64,000 nt of DNA, taken from contig NZ_LT703001.1 of NCBI RefSeq assembly GCF_900149705.1, forward strand, positions 1,798,001-1,862,000. The letters are read 5' to 3'. Numbering within the stretch: position 1 is the first letter of the stretch; each line of letters begins with the position of its first letter. Source of the stretch: Sphingorhabdus sp. Alg231-15 (GTDB taxonomy: Bacteria; Pseudomonadota; Alphaproteobacteria; Sphingomonadales; Sphingomonadaceae). Shown in pieces: positions 1,168 to 8,699 of this stretch. The notes beneath the pieces are model-generated. The model had not been told where the DNA came from, ran no database searches, and saw nothing but the letters and a program-made list of their open reading frames with translations. Both the position numbers and the translations under genes were made by a program.

Positions 1168-1482
1168 CTACCGTCCTTGCAATATCTGTTTGAGCAGAAT
1201 CTTCAACGGAGGCGTGACGCCGGTTAGGCCCAGCAGCAGCATTGCTTCACCGAAATGCTCTCGAGTCAGATCCTCCGAACGGTCCTTGATCACGTGCCAG
1301 AATAGGCCCGCGATTTCCGCCAGCATGAGCCGGCCATTCGCGGCCCTTTCAACCAGATCAAATAACGACCCCAGTTCCTCTTCCGCTGCGACTAGAGCTG
1401 CAAAGCTGGGCCGCAGAACCAGCCGCTGGCCATTGATCATCAATTCCGCTTCGCCGCGGAGCGAATTGGCGCGATCAGACAT
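1168..1482 (-). CDS. GTA gp10-family protein (tail assembly)
   Basis: A 104-residue protein that begins MSDRANSLRGEAELMINGQR and contains LRPSFAALVAAEEELGSLFDL, the recognisable core of the GTA gp10 family (tail tube/tail assembly chaperone type). The ATG at 1482 is preferred to an upstream in-frame GTG at 1494. It overlaps the stop of the major tail gene by 8 bp, as expected for coupled translation. It presumably assists assembly of the tail tube made by the gene just upstream. Confidence 0.8.
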   Translation of the reverse strand: MSDRANSLRGEAELMINGQRLVLRPSFAALVAAEEELGSLFDLVERAANGRLMLAEIAGLFWHVIKDRSEDLTREHFGEAMLLLGLTGVTPPLKILLKQILQGR

Positions 1483-1882
1483 GGGACACCGCACCAGAGC
1501 TTTCGAGGTTCAGCGTGTAGCTGCGCTCGCCATTATAATCACCGCTGTAATCCAGCCGGGTGACGAGGAAATTACCGCGCATGCTGTCGCCGCCTTCAAA
1601 GCTCAGCTCATAAGCGTCGATCATTCCTTCCAGCGCGTGGTTTTTCATACGCAATTCGGCATCCGAGCCCGTAAACACACCGGCGCCTGATACCGATACG
1701 GACCGTATCCCTGCGCCGGACAAAAGCTCGCGCCAGCCACCGCTGTCCTTATTGGTAATCGTCACCGGTTCGCCATTGACCGACAATTGCGTGGTCCGCA
1801 GACCGGCGATGGTGGAATAGCCTATCGGGTCCGCCCCATCGCCAATTCTCAGGAGAAAAGCGCTCCCTTTTTCTGCTGCCAT
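1475..1882 (-). CDS. GTA major tail tube protein (gp9)
   Basis: A 135-residue protein resembling the TP901-1-type major tail proteins. It opens MAAEKGSAFLLRIGDG, has a central SVNGEPVTITNKDSGGWREL stretch, and has a C-terminal beta-rich part ending in NLESSGAVSHV. It should polymerise into the short tail tube of the particle. An AAGGAAC ribosome site lies just before the ATG at 1882. A 216-bp inverted-repeat element sits between this gene and the upstream DUF3168 gene, so the distance between these two genes (about 260 bp) is abnormal for the cluster. Confidence 0.88.
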   Translation of the reverse strand: MAAEKGSAFLLRIGDGADPIGYSTIAGLRTTQLSVNGEPVTITNKDSGGWRELLSGAGIRSVSVSGAGVFTGSDAELRMKNHALEGMIDAYELSFEGGDSMRGNFLVTRLDYSGDYNGERSYTLNLESSGAVSHV

Positions 1883-3759: not shown

Positions 3760-4968
3760 CTAGGTCGCGCTGAATTGCATCAGCTTGATCGCTTCGCTGT
3801 TCATCAACTGCCCACCGACGCGCTTGGTCGCGTAGAAATGGACAAAGGGTTTGTTGGTGAACGGATCGCGTAAGATGCTGGTCGCGCTGCGCTCCGCGAT
3901 GAGATAGCCCGCGCGGAAATTGCCGAAAGCGATCGACAGGCTGTCGGCCGCCACATCCGGCATATCTTCTGCCTCAACCACTGGATAGCCGAGTAGCATA
4001 TCCGGCTGACCCGAAGCCAGTGACGCCTGCCACAGGAACGCGCCATCGGCGGTTTTGAACTTGCGGATCTGAGCCAAGGTCGCGCTGTTCATCACAAAGC
4101 TCGCGCCTTGCCGGTACGCCGGTTTCAACGCGTGAACCAGATCAACAAGCGCATCCTCGCCATCGCTTCCGGCAAAGTCACCAGCCGCACCCGATGGAAT
4201 ATATTGCAGCGTCCCGAAGGCGCGAGCATCATCTAGCTCCTCGGTCACTGGCGCATTGAGGAAACCGCGCGGCTGATTAACCCCGGAGCCGCCAACAAAT
4301 GCTGCCCCCTCCGCCTGCGCAAATTCGCGAGCAATTTCATCCGCGAGCCACGCCTCAACATCAAAGGCCGCGTCATCCAGCATCGCCTGCGACGCCGCTG
4401 GATTGGCATAAAGCTCTCCGGTCGGCGGTGCGATTTCGTTGAAATTGGGTGTGTCGGTTTCTGGCCGTCCAGCGGTTTCGCTAACCCAACCGGAAGGGGT
4501 GCCACCATCGGTGACGAGCTTGCGATATCCCGCGCTGCCAGTCTGCACCACCGTCGCAATCGCTCGAATGGGCGAAATGTCCTTCAGCGTTCGGCCGATC
4601 AGCGCATCAATTTCCTGTGGCACGGCAAAACCACCTTCGGGGCCGGATGCGCCGGAAAAGCTTTTGAGCTCAACCCCGCTATGATCGCCCCGGCGGAGAT
4701 ATTTTGCTGTGAAATCGCGAGCGGCGTTGGAAGACATCATGCCCTTCGCACCGTCCTCATTCGCGGCCAAAGCAGGTCGCGCCGATGCCTTGGAGATCTC
4801 TGACATCTGGCTTTTCAGACCGTCGATATCGCTGCGCAGATCGGTAATCGCCTTTCCGTTATTGTCGTTATTGTCGTGATTGCCGTTTTCTTCCGCCTGC
4901 AAAATGGCGTCAAACGAGGCCTCCAGCGGCTCTGCTTTTGTTTCAAGGGGGGTATTGGAAAAGTCCAT
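3760..4968 (-). CDS. GTA major capsid protein, HK97 fold (gp5)
   Basis: A 402-residue HK97-family major capsid protein. An acidic and polar N-terminal region of about 120 residues (DNDNNGKAITDLRSDIDGLK, helical) matches the delta scaffold that the prohead protease removes. The capsid core follows, with SGPEGGFAVPQEIDALI, ANPAASQAMLDDAAFDVEAW and the C-terminal RVGGQLMNSEAIKLMQ. The start is ATG at 4968 behind AAAGGA. An in-frame extension to 5388 overlaps the protease gene in another frame and is discarded. This should be the most abundant particle protein. Confidence 0.93.
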   Translation of the reverse strand: MDFSNTPLETKAEPLEASFDAILQAEENGNHDNNDNNGKAITDLRSDIDGLKSQMSEISKASARPALAANEDGAKGMMSSNAARDFTAKYLRRGDHSGVELKSFSGASGPEGGFAVPQEIDALIGRTLKDISPIRAIATVVQTGSAGYRKLVTDGGTPSGWVSETAGRPETDTPNFNEIAPPTGELYANPAASQAMLDDAAFDVEAWLADEIAREFAQAEGAAFVGGSGVNQPRGFLNAPVTEELDDARAFGTLQYIPSGAAGDFAGSDGEDALVDLVHALKPAYRQGASFVMNSATLAQIRKFKTADGAFLWQASLASGQPDMLLGYPVVEAEDMPDVAADSLSIAFGNFRAGYLIAERSATSILRDPFTNKPFVHFYATKRVGGQLMNSEAIKLMQFSAT

Positions 4969-5002
4969 GATATTCCTTTCTGGTAAGTAATTGAGTTTGT
5001 CC

Positions 5003-5404
5003 TCAGCACATGATGAGGTGCACCTGCGCCAGCGGCTGCATTGGGCAGGTAACAAGCGAGATTTCGGCAACATCGAGATGGTGCAGGATCCGCGGTCGTC
5101 GTCCAGCCGATTGCTCCACACGATAACCAAAGCTAAGACCTTCAACCGTCCTGCCCGCCAACATTGCCGCGACCTCTCGCCCGACCCGTGTCGCGGTCGA
5201 CAGGGTTCCGATGACGCGCAGGCCACGCTGATCTTCGCGGGCATAGCTGATGCTGCCGATGCGGTTCTCCTGTCGGTGCTGCCAGAGCAGGGGCAGCGAC
5301 AGCCCGTCAGCCAGTGACCCAAAGGCACCCGGCCGAATAATGTCCCCGCCTTTGTCGATACGATTAAAGATAGCGGCATAGCCAGCAAAGCGGATGGCGC
5401 TCAC
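5003..5404 (-). CDS. GTA prohead protease, HK97 type (gp4)
   Basis: A 133-residue protein of the HK97 prohead protease family. It has the early AGYAAIFNRIDKGGDII segment, the histidine motif LLWQHRQENRIGSI and the serine motif VEGLSFGYRV, the two conserved catalytic regions. It cleaves the capsid scaffold during maturation. The start is taken as GTG at 5404, which shares GTGA with the stop of the upstream gene. The capsid gene follows 34 bp downstream. At about 133 residues it is compact compared with phage versions but complete in its motifs. Confidence 0.85.
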   Translation of the reverse strand: MSAIRFAGYAAIFNRIDKGGDIIRPGAFGSLADGLSLPLLWQHRQENRIGSISYAREDQRGLRVIGTLSTATRVGREVAAMLAGRTVEGLSFGYRVEQSAGRRPRILHHLDVAEISLVTCPMQPLAQVHLIMC

Positions 5405-5709
5405 GTAATCAGGCTTCCGAACCCGAACCGCATGGCGATACCGATCAGAAGCAGCGCCAGCATAGCGCGAATAACCCACGTAATCGCCGCTTTCCATGCA
5501 CTCGCCTTGGCATCGCGCCAGGCGCGGAGCAATTCGCGTAGCTCGTCAAGATCATCCGGTGCCTTGTGATCGGCCAAACCGAGCCGGTCGAGCACGCGCT
5601 CCGCACCGCTGTCGGTCGCTTCCTCGACAATCGCGCGGAGCGTGATCAGGTCAGCGCCATCGCCTTCCGCCTGCGCCACCAGGCGAGCGAGCATTTCTTC
5701 GTTTTGCAT
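5401..5709 (-). CDS. DUF6127-like GTA membrane protein (gp3.5 position)
   Basis: A 102-residue protein with a helical N-terminal part (MLARLVAQAEGDGADLITLR), a central EATDSGAERVLDRLGL segment and one C-terminal transmembrane stretch (AITWVIRAMLALLLIGIAM). The pattern fits the DUF6127 family, which I associate with the place between portal and protease in sphingomonad GTAs. The function is unknown, and a membrane-bound assembly role is only a guess. It overlaps the protease gene by 4 bp. Upstream lies a repeat-filled 300-bp stretch. Confidence 0.75.
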   Translation of the reverse strand: MQNEEMLARLVAQAEGDGADLITLRAIVEEATDSGAERVLDRLGLADHKAPDDLDELRELLRAWRDAKASAWKAAITWVIRAMLALLLIGIAMRFGFGSLIT

Positions 5710-6008: not shown

Positions 6009-7148
6009 CTACTCGATCCCCAACATTGCCCGTTTCTCTTCGGGTGCCAGGAAATCCGCTTCGCTCACTTGCTGCCACAATCGTTCGCGATCCTCCGACA
6101 GTGCGGGTATTTGATCGCGGTCCACGGCCAGTGACATATCTTCAAACCAATCCCCTAACGCTGCAGACAGACCGTCCAGAATCTTCCCAGCCAGCGGTAA
6201 TATCGTCAGCCGCCACAGCGCCCGATTGGCTTCACGGTAATTGGCATAACTATTGTCGCCGGGCAGCCCGAGGAGCATGGGCGGCACACCAAAGGCCAGC
6301 GCGATTTCTCTTGCCGCGGCCGCTTTCAAAGCCACAAAATCCATGTCCGCAGGGGTCATGCTCATGCGTTCCCATTTCAAGCCGCCTTCGAGCAGCATCG
6401 GCTTTCCGGCATTTCCGGACCCGGCAAAGCTCGCCTCCATCTCGGCCTTGAGCCGATCAAACTGATCCGACGTCAGCGCCGATCCATCCGGTCCGGGATC
6501 AAAGACCAGCGCTCCTGATGGCCGCGCCGCATTCTCGAGCAAGGCCCTGTTCCACTGCGCCGCCGCATTGTGCACCGCCACTGCCTTTGCCGCTGCACCG
6601 AGACAGCCAAGGCCATAATGATCATCGGTCGGGTGAAAAGCCTTGATATGAATAATCGCAGGCCGCCCCCTGTCATCCAGTGCGGCAATGCGGGTCTGGT
6701 GCTCGCCTGCGCGATAGACATAGGCAATCGGCCAGCCCTTTTCATCCGGCTCGATCGTGATCCGATCGGGCCGCAGAGCAAACAGCTCAGCAGGCTGCTC
6801 GTCGATTCCGCACATCACCTGCACATAGGCATTACCATGCAGCAACAGATGCGCGGCAACGGTTTCGAGAAGAGACTGGCCGGCGCTGGTCGCATTGACA
6901 AGCATCGCGAGCGTATCGTCCATCGGAGAGAGCGGCGCACCACCAACCCCTTCAGCAACAATCCGCACCGCGCGCTGAGCCACCGCATTTTCGACATAGG
7001 CTTCGCGCACACGTCCCTCATATGAAAAGGGCGCTTCTCCCGAAAAGAAAGCGCCTCCATAGGAGCCGATATAACTGCGCCCCAAAGGCGGCCGTGTTCG
7101 TTCACCCCCGCCCTTGAAGGCGAGGGCCAGACTGTCCCAAATGCTCAT
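6009..7148 (-). CDS. GTA portal protein, HK97 family (gp3)
   Basis: A 379-residue HK97-type portal protein. The N-terminus carries MSIWDSLALAFKGG, then REAYVENAVAQRAVRIVAEG (a typical portal helix), HLLLHGNAYVQVM, RPDRITIEPDEKGWPIAYVY, and the C-terminal FGVPPMLLGLPGDNSYANYR motif, highly characteristic of the family. Twelve copies normally form the DNA entry ring and dock the terminase. The start is ATG at 7148 behind AAGGAAC. The open frame further upstream crosses a repeat remnant and is not used. Confidence 0.93.
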   Translation of the reverse strand: MSIWDSLALAFKGGGERTRPPLGRSYIGSYGGAFFSGEAPFSYEGRVREAYVENAVAQRAVRIVAEGVGGAPLSPMDDTLAMLVNATSAGQSLLETVAAHLLLHGNAYVQVMCGIDEQPAELFALRPDRITIEPDEKGWPIAYVYRAGEHQTRIAALDDRGRPAIIHIKAFHPTDDHYGLGCLGAAAKAVAVHNAAAQWNRALLENAARPSGALVFDPGPDGSALTSDQFDRLKAEMEASFAGSGNAGKPMLLEGGLKWERMSMTPADMDFVALKAAAAREIALAFGVPPMLLGLPGDNSYANYREANRALWRLTILPLAGKILDGLSAALGDWFEDMSLAVDRDQIPALSEDRERLWQQVSEADFLAPEEKRAMLGIE

Positions 7149-7186
7149 GGTTGTTCCTTTGTATTTTTGTATAGTTGCTTTTTTTA

Positions 7187-7207
7187 CCTCAGGCGCCGGG
7201 CGCCTGA
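7187..7207. repeat. Collapsed remnant of the inverted-repeat element
   Basis: The sequence CCTCAGGCGCC-GGG-CGCCTGA is both outer ends of the long element joined with the whole interior missing, forming a short hairpin. It lies between the terminase stop (7233) and the portal start (7148). It looks like the scar of an internally deleted copy. Confidence 0.65.
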
Positions 7208-7232
7208 ACTCCAATAAACAATCCTTCACTTC

Positions 7233-8699
7233 CTAAACCCGCACCCGCGGTTCTCGCCGCCGCAGCAGCATCAATTCCGTCAACGCATAGACCAGCGCGT
7301 CAGCGCGATCAGGTGAGCGGCCCGGTCCATCATAACCGCCACCGACCAACAACCCACACAACTCGTCCTCCAAGCGAGAAAACGCACCCATATGGAGCAC
7401 CCGCCCCGCTTCATAGAGTGCCGCAACCGGTTCAGCCCGGGCGACCTTGCCGCGTGAGGCGCGTACGAGCCGGATCGGCAAAGAGATATCCGCAGCTTGC
7501 AAGACTGATTTGACCATCTCTCCGCCCTGATTGGCTTCAGCAATCACACGGTCAGCACCCCAGTTTCGGGCCGCATCTGCTACTGCTCTTGCCCATGTTT
7601 CGGGACTGGCCTTCTCGACGCTTTGGTCGGCGAGAATGACGGCTTTATTATCTGTACGCAGGGCAGCAACAATGATCCCGCAGGCATCTCCGCTGCTGGA
7701 GGCGGGTGGATCGACGCCAATGACTATTCTCGTCCAGTCTGTCGTCATCCCCTCCGTCATCCCGGACTTGATCCGGGATCCAGTGTAGCTCACGTCACCC
7801 TCACGATGATCACAGACCTCTCTGCTTGACACTCTGGATGCTGAATCAAGTTCAGCATGACGAATTTGGCGATGGTCCGGAGTTTCTTCATCTTGCCGCA
7901 CCCGGCATTCCTCCAGCATCGCCCGCGTCCACAAAGCGCCTTCCAACTCCTCGATCAGTTCGCCATTCAGCTCCTGCCGCCCCAATCGCGTGCCGCCATA
8001 GTCAGCCTCCATCACCTGGATGAATGCCGAGGGCAGATTTGCGACATTGTCCTCAGTACTGCCGCGCGTAGTCACAGTACCGCTGTCCTTGACCAGCGCC
8101 CGCACCAGCGGTACCGGCCTTGGCGTCGTCGTCGCAGTAATTTTGGGCGCGTCGCCAAGCCGCAAACCCATTTTCAGATTATCCCAGGCCGCTTGCGCCT
8201 GCCCGGCATTGTTGGTCCATTTGGCAATCTCGTCGCACCATGAATGACTATGCTGTGGCCCGCGCAGGCCTTCCGGCTCCGCCGCCGAATAGAGATAAGC
8301 CTCGGCACCATTTGACCAGCGCAGTCGCTTTAACGACGGCTCCCAAAGCGGGCGGTTTTTCGTTGGAGCGATCGACAATAGGCCGCTCTCTCCCTCAACC
8401 ATTACCATCCGCGCCTCGCCAAGATTCGCACCAACCAGAGCAAAGCGCGCGCTGCCGTCACTCTCTGCAATTTCACGGACCCATTCCGCACCGGCACGGG
8501 TCTTGCCAAAACCGCGCCCGGCCATAATCATCCACACGGTCCAGTCGCCAGCAGGTGGTAATTGTTCGTTGCGCGCCCAATAGTGCCAGCTGGCCTCATA
8601 TTGCTGGCAGGTTTCCCGGTCCATCAGGCCGAGGTAAAGCGCACGGTCGTCGTCCTCCAGTGCGCCAATTTCGGCTGCCTTTAGTAGATCACGATCCAT
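7233..8699 (-). CDS. GTA terminase large subunit (gp2) with in-frame repeat insertion
   Basis: This is the 488-residue packaging ATPase/nuclease of the GTA. The Walker A motif GRGFGKTR is at residues 61-68 and the Walker B-like WCDEIA at 154-159. The nuclease domain begins with IGVDPPASSSGDACG (Asp330), continues with ADRVIAEAN (Glu388) and ends with SPDRADALVYAL. Residues 280-315 are encoded entirely by a 108-bp palindromic repeat placed between the two domains, where relatives go straight from the ATPase tail to the nuclease. All motifs remain intact, so activity may persist. The ATG at 8699 overlaps the small terminase gene by 11 bp. Confidence 0.92.
   Translation of the reverse strand: MDRDLLKAAEIGALEDDDRALYLGLMDRETCQQYEASWHYWARNEQLPPAGDWTVWMIMAGRGFGKTRAGAEWVREIAESDGSARFALVGANLGEARMVMVEGESGLLSIAPTKNRPLWEPSLKRLRWSNGAEAYLYSAAEPEGLRGPQHSHSWCDEIAKWTNNAGQAQAAWDNLKMGLRLGDAPKITATTTPRPVPLVRALVKDSGTVTTRGSTEDNVANLPSAFIQVMEADYGGTRLGRQELNGELIEELEGALWTRAMLEECRVRQDEETPDHRQIRHAELDSASRVSSREVCDHREGDVSYTGSRIKSGMTEGMTTDWTRIVIGVDPPASSSGDACGIIVAALRTDNKAVILADQSVEKASPETWARAVADAARNWGADRVIAEANQGGEMVKSVLQAADISLPIRLVRASRGKVARAEPVAALYEAGRVLHMGAFSRLEDELCGLLVGGGYDGPGRSPDRADALVYALTELMLLRRREPRVRV
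7755..7862. repeat. 108-bp bipartite palindromic element inside the terminase gene
   Basis: The two ends are inverted copies of about 29 bp. On the plus strand the left end reads CGTCATCCCGGACTTGATCC and so on, and the right end starts CTGGATGCTGAATCAAGTTC. Both share CTGGAT, ATCAAGT and ATGACG. Each end is itself a small palindrome. The length is exactly 36 codons, there are no stops in the terminase frame, and the boundaries coincide with codons 280 and 315. This recalls the Rickettsia palindromic elements, which also insert in frame in proteins. Other copies in this genome are expected but none is visible in the window. Confidence 0.85.

Follow-up and report, generated by a model that had tools for sequence, protein, structure and literature searches.

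The Terminase Gene and Its Cluster

The window, the whole stretch of 64,000 nucleotides that was analysed, belongs to the genome of Sphingorhabdus sp. Alg231-15 (G000, 3.62 Mb) and contains a gene cluster in which a putative small terminase and the terminase are followed by portal, protease and capsid genes and then by tail genes. The cluster extends leftward past the window with genes for a TIM-barrel tail sheath/Rcc01695 protein, a baseplate hub and an Rcc01698-like protein (Table 1). Beside the terminase, the family matches TIGR02218 (baseplate hub) and TIGR02217 (Rcc01695) lie above cut-off, and further matches of gene transfer agent (GTA) type are to Rcc01698_C, TIM-barrel NCTSP and the gp10 family. 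A megatron-like GTA protein (L178 7051-9249), with 732 aa against the 1299 positions of model NF048004, scores 375 bits, under the cut-off of 800, and is perhaps incomplete or else a shortened version. Taken together, this is the gene content of a predicted RcGTA-type gene transfer agent.

Table 1. Features of the terminase region, in window positions.
Feature	Position	Strand	Details
CGTC-tagged REP head-to-head heterodimer, 108 bp	7755..7862		36 codons (aa 290-325), in the frame of the - strand terminase
Arm 1	7755..7782	+	CGTC tag, stem ATCCCGGA/TCCGGGAT, loop CTTGA, tail CCA
Arm 2	7835..7862	-	CGTC tag, stem ATGCTGAA/TTCAGCAT, loop CTTGA, tail CCA
Spacer separating both REP units, 52 nt	7783..7834
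GTA large terminase (TerL), 498 aa	7233..8729	-	Terminase_6N aa 67-272, Terminase_6C aa 337-484 (Pfam)
Putative small terminase, 185 aa	8689..9246	-	upstream; named by position only; no Pfam family at E 0.001
HK97-type portal protein	6009..7229	-
HK97-type major capsid protein	3760..5388	-	ORF as listed; profile match begins at aa 155
GTA gp10-type protein (Phage_TAC_11)	1168..1494	-
DUF6127 protein	5401-5709	-	in the portal/prohead protease interval of the GTA cluster

The AlphaFold2 model of the terminase has a mean pLDDT of 84.9, with values under 50 only at residues 1-9, 283-329 and 493-497; within the insert, the low pLDDT partly reflects the fact that few homologues possess it. The best structural matches of the model are phage large terminases (E 1e-15). 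Their TM-scores reach only 0.3-0.4 of the query and the whole-chain rmsd is large, so that the domains match, not their arrangement. Outside this locus, the terminase frames L043 865-2823 (G035) and L047 (G040) run to about 650 residues; some 200 of these are additional at the N-terminus and possibly represent a small-terminase fusion or an upstream open frame.

A Repeat Pair between the Two Terminase Domains

A previous sequence-only reading had reported a 108-bp element translated within the terminase between its ATPase and nuclease domains, with inverted ends that are themselves palindromes and intact motifs on both sides. Its coordinates, length and frame are exact, the two arms are inverted and each forms a stem-loop, and both Pfam domains remain recognisable on either side. 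An inverted-repeat search of the window returns the arms as 7755-7786 and 7831-7862, of 32 nt each and 78% complementary. Each arm is composed of an unpaired CGTC, a stem of 8 bp that opens with AT, the 5-nt loop CTTGA and CCA, and thus shows the features that sections of PMC3733652 give for the CGTC REPs, namely a CGTC (or TGTC/CCTC) unpaired motif at one end, a stem of 8-9 bp with AT as its first two residues, a loop of 4-5 nt and a CCA tail. Since the two stems are unlike (CCCGGA type and GCTGAA type), the element is a heterodimer. Its predicted translation is RHAELDSASRVSSREVCDHREGDVSYTGSRIKSGMT, placed at aa 290-325 by arithmetic from the coordinates.

Among the six frames of the element, that of the terminase is the sole stop-free one; in shuffled sequences, a given frame is open in 20%. 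The 28-bp end pattern is matched once in the window but not once in 100 shuffled versions which, together with its recurrence in the genome and the lack of matches to the reversed pattern, indicates that the palindromic ends are not due to chance. The single-stranded DNA fold of the element beats 200 of 200 shuffles (z -3.55), and its RNA fold is stronger than 197 of 200 (z -2.73). The terminase of G000 has 73 residues where close relatives have a 26-residue segment, which means 47 extra codons, the repeat accounting for 36 of them. As far as the DNA itself can tell, the segment is confirmed as an in-frame CGTC REP pair joining the two domains of an RcGTA-type large terminase.

Copies Elsewhere in the Host Genome

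When sites within three mismatches are counted as end-like, G000 contains ten of them (none for the reversed-pattern control), including head-to-head pairs at C1:1805755, 2140675 and 2844159, those other than the terminase pair being 80 and 84 bp long. Thus, the genomic repetition and head-to-head dimers typical of CGTC REPs are also found in this genome. Seven CGTC-REP loci were inspected, namely the terminase and six others that include one weaker match. Two of these seven loci are intragenic (terminase and truB), and five of the six further loci are not inside a long conserved frame, frames being judged by looking. The truB gene (L137 1541-2608; G000:C1:3594040-3595107) contains one REP unit in frame. 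At the matching place, a complete heterodimer is present in the sister species G020, and the single unit of G000 may therefore be a shortened remnant.

These copies bear on the possibility that the segment is an ordinary variable protein loop that happens to resemble a repeat. Of the protein parts compared, the linker indeed evolves fastest, and this holds for most of the short-linker pairs too; however, its DNA ends recur in the genome where reversed controls do not, and its DNA folds beyond shuffles. The existence of genome copies refutes this reading, to which we assign virtually no probability. The sequence-only reading had itself proposed to search for the ends, and had accepted that similar residues in related terminases whose genomes hold no such repeat elsewhere would point to an ordinary loop. 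The search was productive, with the F1 (CGTC) pattern present in all 32 genomes of the genus; G017 and G002, whose terminases have similar residues, do carry the repeat elsewhere (in G002 at one extra F1 site only), and G020, the sister of G000, is without the insert.

Linker Occupancy across the Genus

The sample comprised 32 genomes of the genus, including G000. A terminase was matched in 28 of them (25 full-length and 3 partial), the other four being multi-contig draft assemblies. Measured from landmark EGALWT to landmark VIGVDP, the linker is short in 11 of the 25 full-length terminases (26 residues in eight, 24 in three) and filled with repeat DNA in 14, where it spans 37-73 residues. The alignment of related terminases thus mapped the insertion, as had been suggested, and this range is in keeping with the view that extra residues are tolerated at this place. 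By the criterion applied, lineage-specific internal insertions of at least eight residues occur in the linker alone among the 25 proteins; the remaining length differences are N-terminal, frames having been read from stop to stop.

Three kinds of repeat occupy the filled linkers. F1 is found in G000, G017 and G002, in each case as exactly 108 bp; F2 (CCGTTCG-GTCGAG type) in G010, G003, G016, G028, G024, G015, G025 and G001; and F3 (CCGTTCG-CCTGAG type) in G027, G007 and, as a half-unit identified visually, G022. Judging by their palindromes, the three families are mutually unrelated. F2 and F3 patterns occur in 17 and 24 of the 32 genomes, respectively, and controls gave none for any family. 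There are seven F1 sites in G000, eight in G017 and two in G002, and no F2 or F3 site was detected in G000 at the settings used. Linkers can be short despite more F1 sites, as in G031 (24 sites) and G006 (19). A plain stem-length test gave P <0.05 in 7 of the 14 filled linkers, G000 being among the other seven; taking into account the weakness of this test, the family identification of filled linkers rests on the repeat matches.

In five terminases aligned from outside the genus, the linker has 24-28 residues. Among 80 named loci (17 of them unparsed), a few have longer linkers (L067, L115, L109 and L056), seen as peptides only. The peptides of L067 (Aurantiacibacter suaedae), L115 and L109 are long or repeat-like. 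At loci L128-L131, corresponding to G005, G012, G014 and, from another genus, G032, a terminase truncated near residue 137-167 is found with no portal match in about 2.4 kb past it, suggesting that GTA structural genes may have been deleted there.

Selection on the Gene and Divergence of the Arms

Both domains flanking the linker remain under purifying selection. In 17 pairs of terminases, filled or empty, pN/pS was 0.07-0.15 for the ATPase and 0.03-0.16 for the nuclease domain, with linker values of 0.16-0.79 in 15 pairs and of 1.01 and 2.14 in two F2 pairs that have few silent changes. For ATPase and nuclease, respectively, the values are 0.13 and 0.12 in G000-G017, 0.09 and 0.16 in G000-G020, 0.09 and 0.03 in G010-G016 (both F2), and 0.09 and 0.13 in the empty pair G020-G023. 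The possibility that the terminase is a pseudogene was rejected on the basis of these ratios.

The F2 arms of the eight terminases are much more uniform than their surroundings, with 77 of 1624 compared sites differing (4.7%), against 128 of 357 (35.9%) in spacers of equal length and 2018 of 5643 (35.8%) at fourfold sites, that is, a divergence about 7.6 times under that of fourfold sites. Codon variants in these arms comprise eight that change the amino acid and one silent, so the arm peptide looks unconstrained, and no compensating changes were seen by eye in the aligned arms. Five of the eight F2 terminases have spacers that look alike by eye, and this common spacer was not seen, also by eye, among the 18 F2 pairs listed in G010; both facts fit one shared insertion whose arms were rewritten later. 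The uniformity of the arms would be best explained by gene conversion from other copies or by repeated replacement within the same family, although selection on a DNA or RNA hairpin could also account for it. As for the peptide of the insert, we infer that it is functionally neutral.

Repeat Length and Reading Frame

The sequence-only reading had raised the idea that such repeats are shaped for in-frame insertion, and this part of it is not supported. In G010, 39 stretches around listed repeat sites (covering all listed F1 sites, some of F3, and F2 except for the terminase copy) resolved into 58 clusters, 32 of which are exact two-arm, facing clusters of one family, 29 outside and 3 inside verified genes. 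The term verified refers to five clusters located in glyS, ligA (two), uvrA and truB, and the others may include unrecognised genes. The 29 copies outside verified genes fall into length classes 0/1/2 modulo three as 11/7/11, distributed by family as 3/4/3 (F1), 1/2/5 (F2) and 7/1/3 (F3), F3 alone leaning to class 0 (7 of 11); the three copies within verified genes belong to classes 1, 0 and 1. The F2 repeats of the terminase linker are 74 or 80 bp from symmetric end to symmetric end. It has to be noted that the class of any one length varies with the definition of the ends, the spread across classes being unaffected.

Similar heterodimers were searched for in 397 genomes of the family, where ten were found, including the terminase copies of G000 and G017 (that of G002 was unmatched); the eight remaining have total lengths of 95-98, with two bases added at the outer ends, and cover all three classes. 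Construction as a multiple of three was rejected, since lengths outside verified genes are spread over all classes. An enrichment of the arms in open frames was likewise discarded: the element in the window has 1 against a shuffle mean of 1.21, and the F2 arm has 6 against 5.11 (P 0.30). Most simply, the reading frame would be kept by selection on the gene; its retention looks like a filter because the flanking domains stay under purifying selection.

Other Genes with the Same Pattern

The terminase is not the only gene of this kind, a notion that was rejected once truB and ligA, together with one case each in uvrA and glyS, were found. A truB match exists in 29 of the 32 genomes, and all 29 loops measure 34-78 residues between landmarks, so that the genus offers no clean empty truB loop. 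By inspection, nine of these loops contain CGTC units, ten are of a long SSPLEGE-like type, six are of a type beginning with SS and ending with REE or GEE, and four are singletons (G009, G022, G002, which is F2, and the short one of G018, hard to classify). Only CGTC and F2 have been confirmed as repeats elsewhere among the kinds of truB insert. In the CGTC loops of G016, G001, G015 and G025, apparently broken extra units stand next to the pair.

At ligA site 1, 26 of 30 loci could be parsed, 11 being empty (26 residues) and 15 filled. The inserts are of at least five kinds by eye, one of them common to G000 and G017. The ligA gene of G000 (L231, near C1:3602645) has a different in-frame insert (SLSREGEG...PTPPLKRRG), of the same kind as that in G017. 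Sister species are empty or have other inserts at this loop.

Arrival of the Insert

On a terminase tree built without the linker, the occupancy labels need seven changes, the minimum possible being four, and well-supported branches force at least three changes for F1 and two each for F2 and F3, either gains or losses. Deep in the genus, this tree has several forks of uncertain order, which makes the number of independent insertions uncertain as well. A tree of LigA and TruB (without G002) agrees with it in that it pairs G000 with the insert-free G020 (97/93) and places G017 in a separate clade from G000 (100/100). Aligned over its full length, the 108-bp element of G000 is 87% similar to the terminase insert of G017 and 78% to that of G002; G017 has a second full-length copy elsewhere, 73% similar. 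Spacer and some flanking sequence are common to G000 and G017, and thus their inserts may be one event, either inherited or exchanged.

Sites grouping G000 with G020 versus G017 are 9:29 near the linker and 173:60 elsewhere (P 3e-9), the near-linker stretches having been picked after inspection of the data. Such a grouping would be a sign of local recombination, through which G000 may have acquired its insert or G020 may have lost one. The identities, of only 82-84%, give no pointer to a close donor.

An Explanation and Its Alternatives

The explanation that we propose, and hold to be probably right, is that two CGTC REPs forming a head-to-head heterodimer, and thus a palindromic repeat of the non-autonomous kind, entered the linker between ATPase and nuclease, which would act as a recurrent landing site, as the loops of truB and ligA appear to do. 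Copies breaking the frame or the protein would be purged by selection, with the result that surviving inserts are stop-free and an overall multiple of three. A recurrent hot spot is favoured because unrelated families occur next to short linkers. A palindrome already in place might leave the site prone to breakage and refilling, and gene conversion, or replacement happening again and again, could maintain the uniformity of the arms. The stronger form of this proposal, in which the terminase linker and the TruB and LigA loops would be revolving docking sites where a resident palindrome makes the site break or recombine and is swapped for an unrelated one, the arms that survive being rewritten from copies in other parts of the genome, is put forward only tentatively, and the odds are rather against it.

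Filled linkers would also be accounted for if the linker had received a single insertion long ago, whose descendants have since diverged so far that they appear as different repeat families, and parts of PMC3767692 argue for such a common origin of differing RPE groups at orthologue loci. The inserts of G000, G017 and G002, which align over their full length, could be read in this way. The arms of F1, F2 and F3 are, however, different palindromes, each of which matches copies of its own family in the genus; empty linkers have exactly 26 (8/11) or 24 (3/11) residues and are not decayed repeats; and, as already mentioned, F2 and F3 were not found in G000 at the settings used. At ligA site 1, the 26-residue empties likewise stand alongside the several kinds of insert. 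A single ancient event is, hence, a quite improbable origin for the families. Slightly better, but still unlikely, is that the repeat is kept for a function, either as a transcript hairpin tuning GTA expression or as a peptide adjusting packaging. The low divergence of the F2 arms compared with spacers and fourfold sites, and the RNA fold of the element, would be expected from such a role; against this, sister species have unrelated repeats or none at the linker, variants in the F2 arms mostly change the amino acid with no compensating changes by eye, and REPs are also present in unrelated genes.

A last alternative, that the insertion is tolerated in a decaying terminase of a dead GTA, has very little probability. 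Terminases cut off near residue 137-167 in G005, G012 and G014, with no portal match in the approximately 2.4 kb beyond them, mean that a GTA can be lost. In G000, however, the terminase is full length, its domains show pN/pS values of 0.09-0.16 against G017 and G020, and family matches were obtained for the portal, capsid, protease and tail genes (the megatron model being below cut-off).

Taken by itself, the element is an ordinary one for Alphaproteobacteria, and CGTC REPs located within genes were already known. What is new is the comparative result, in which the same codons are occupied by several repeat families with no relation to each other, with short and filled sites side by side. A small genus makes it possible to discriminate between single ancient insertions that drift and loops that repeatedly take palindromes, and the data favour the latter. 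If the tentative docking-site view is true, segments of 20-60 residues are added to proteins, altered and removed again while function is kept. For both a DNA ligase and a packaging motor, the genus offers natural pairs with and without inserts, and its RNA-modifying enzyme loops hold several kinds of insert.

Comparison with Known Systems

The closest known relatives of the element are the CGTC REPs described in sections of PMC3733652, by stem and loop length those of type CGTC-2, with which it shares the tag, the stem and loop lengths, the CCA tail and the head-to-head heterodimer. According to the same sections, CGTC REPs are occasionally inserted in frame in genes, mostly in Alphaproteobacteria, as in the case described here; the copy number in G000 is low compared with many of the families reported there. 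In other bacteria, intragenic REPs are described for truB, uvrA and DNA ligase, and in recB of two Xanthomonas they lie at approximately the same site, with different sites in other genes of that functional category, whereas here three families share one linker within one genus. The sections consulted of that article, its additional files aside, mention neither terminase nor GTA genes, and among the matches listed in our search of the open-access literature no earlier work dealt with palindromic repeats inside a terminase of a GTA.

The likeness to the Rickettsia palindromic elements, put forward in the sequence-only reading, is right in kind, taking into account that RPE-4 and RPE-6 are counted among the CGTC REPs, a class that includes intragenic copies (Di Nocera 2013, PMC3733652). 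The element shares with that type an in-frame, stop-free insertion within a conserved gene, its host being a sphingomonad in contrast to the intracellular Rickettsia. The guanylate kinase of Rickettsia conorii that contains an RPE stays active, as tested with and without the insert (Abergel 2006, as described in PMC2229807).

The nearest parallel for the occupancy of the linker comes from a study of Rickettsia japonica (PMC3767692), in parts of which different RPE groups are described at the same orthologue loci. As in the genus analysed here, RPE-4, RPE-6 and RPE-7 are inserted in conserved genes with varied groups per locus, and their presence in exposed parts of proteins is a further listed likeness. 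Two options were considered in those parts, hot spots or one insertion that diverged, the latter being preferred and the former kept as possible. Thus, the authors of the Rickettsia work lean to one ancestral insertion, whereas in this genus the combination of short linkers and unrelated families favours repeated filling of the same site.
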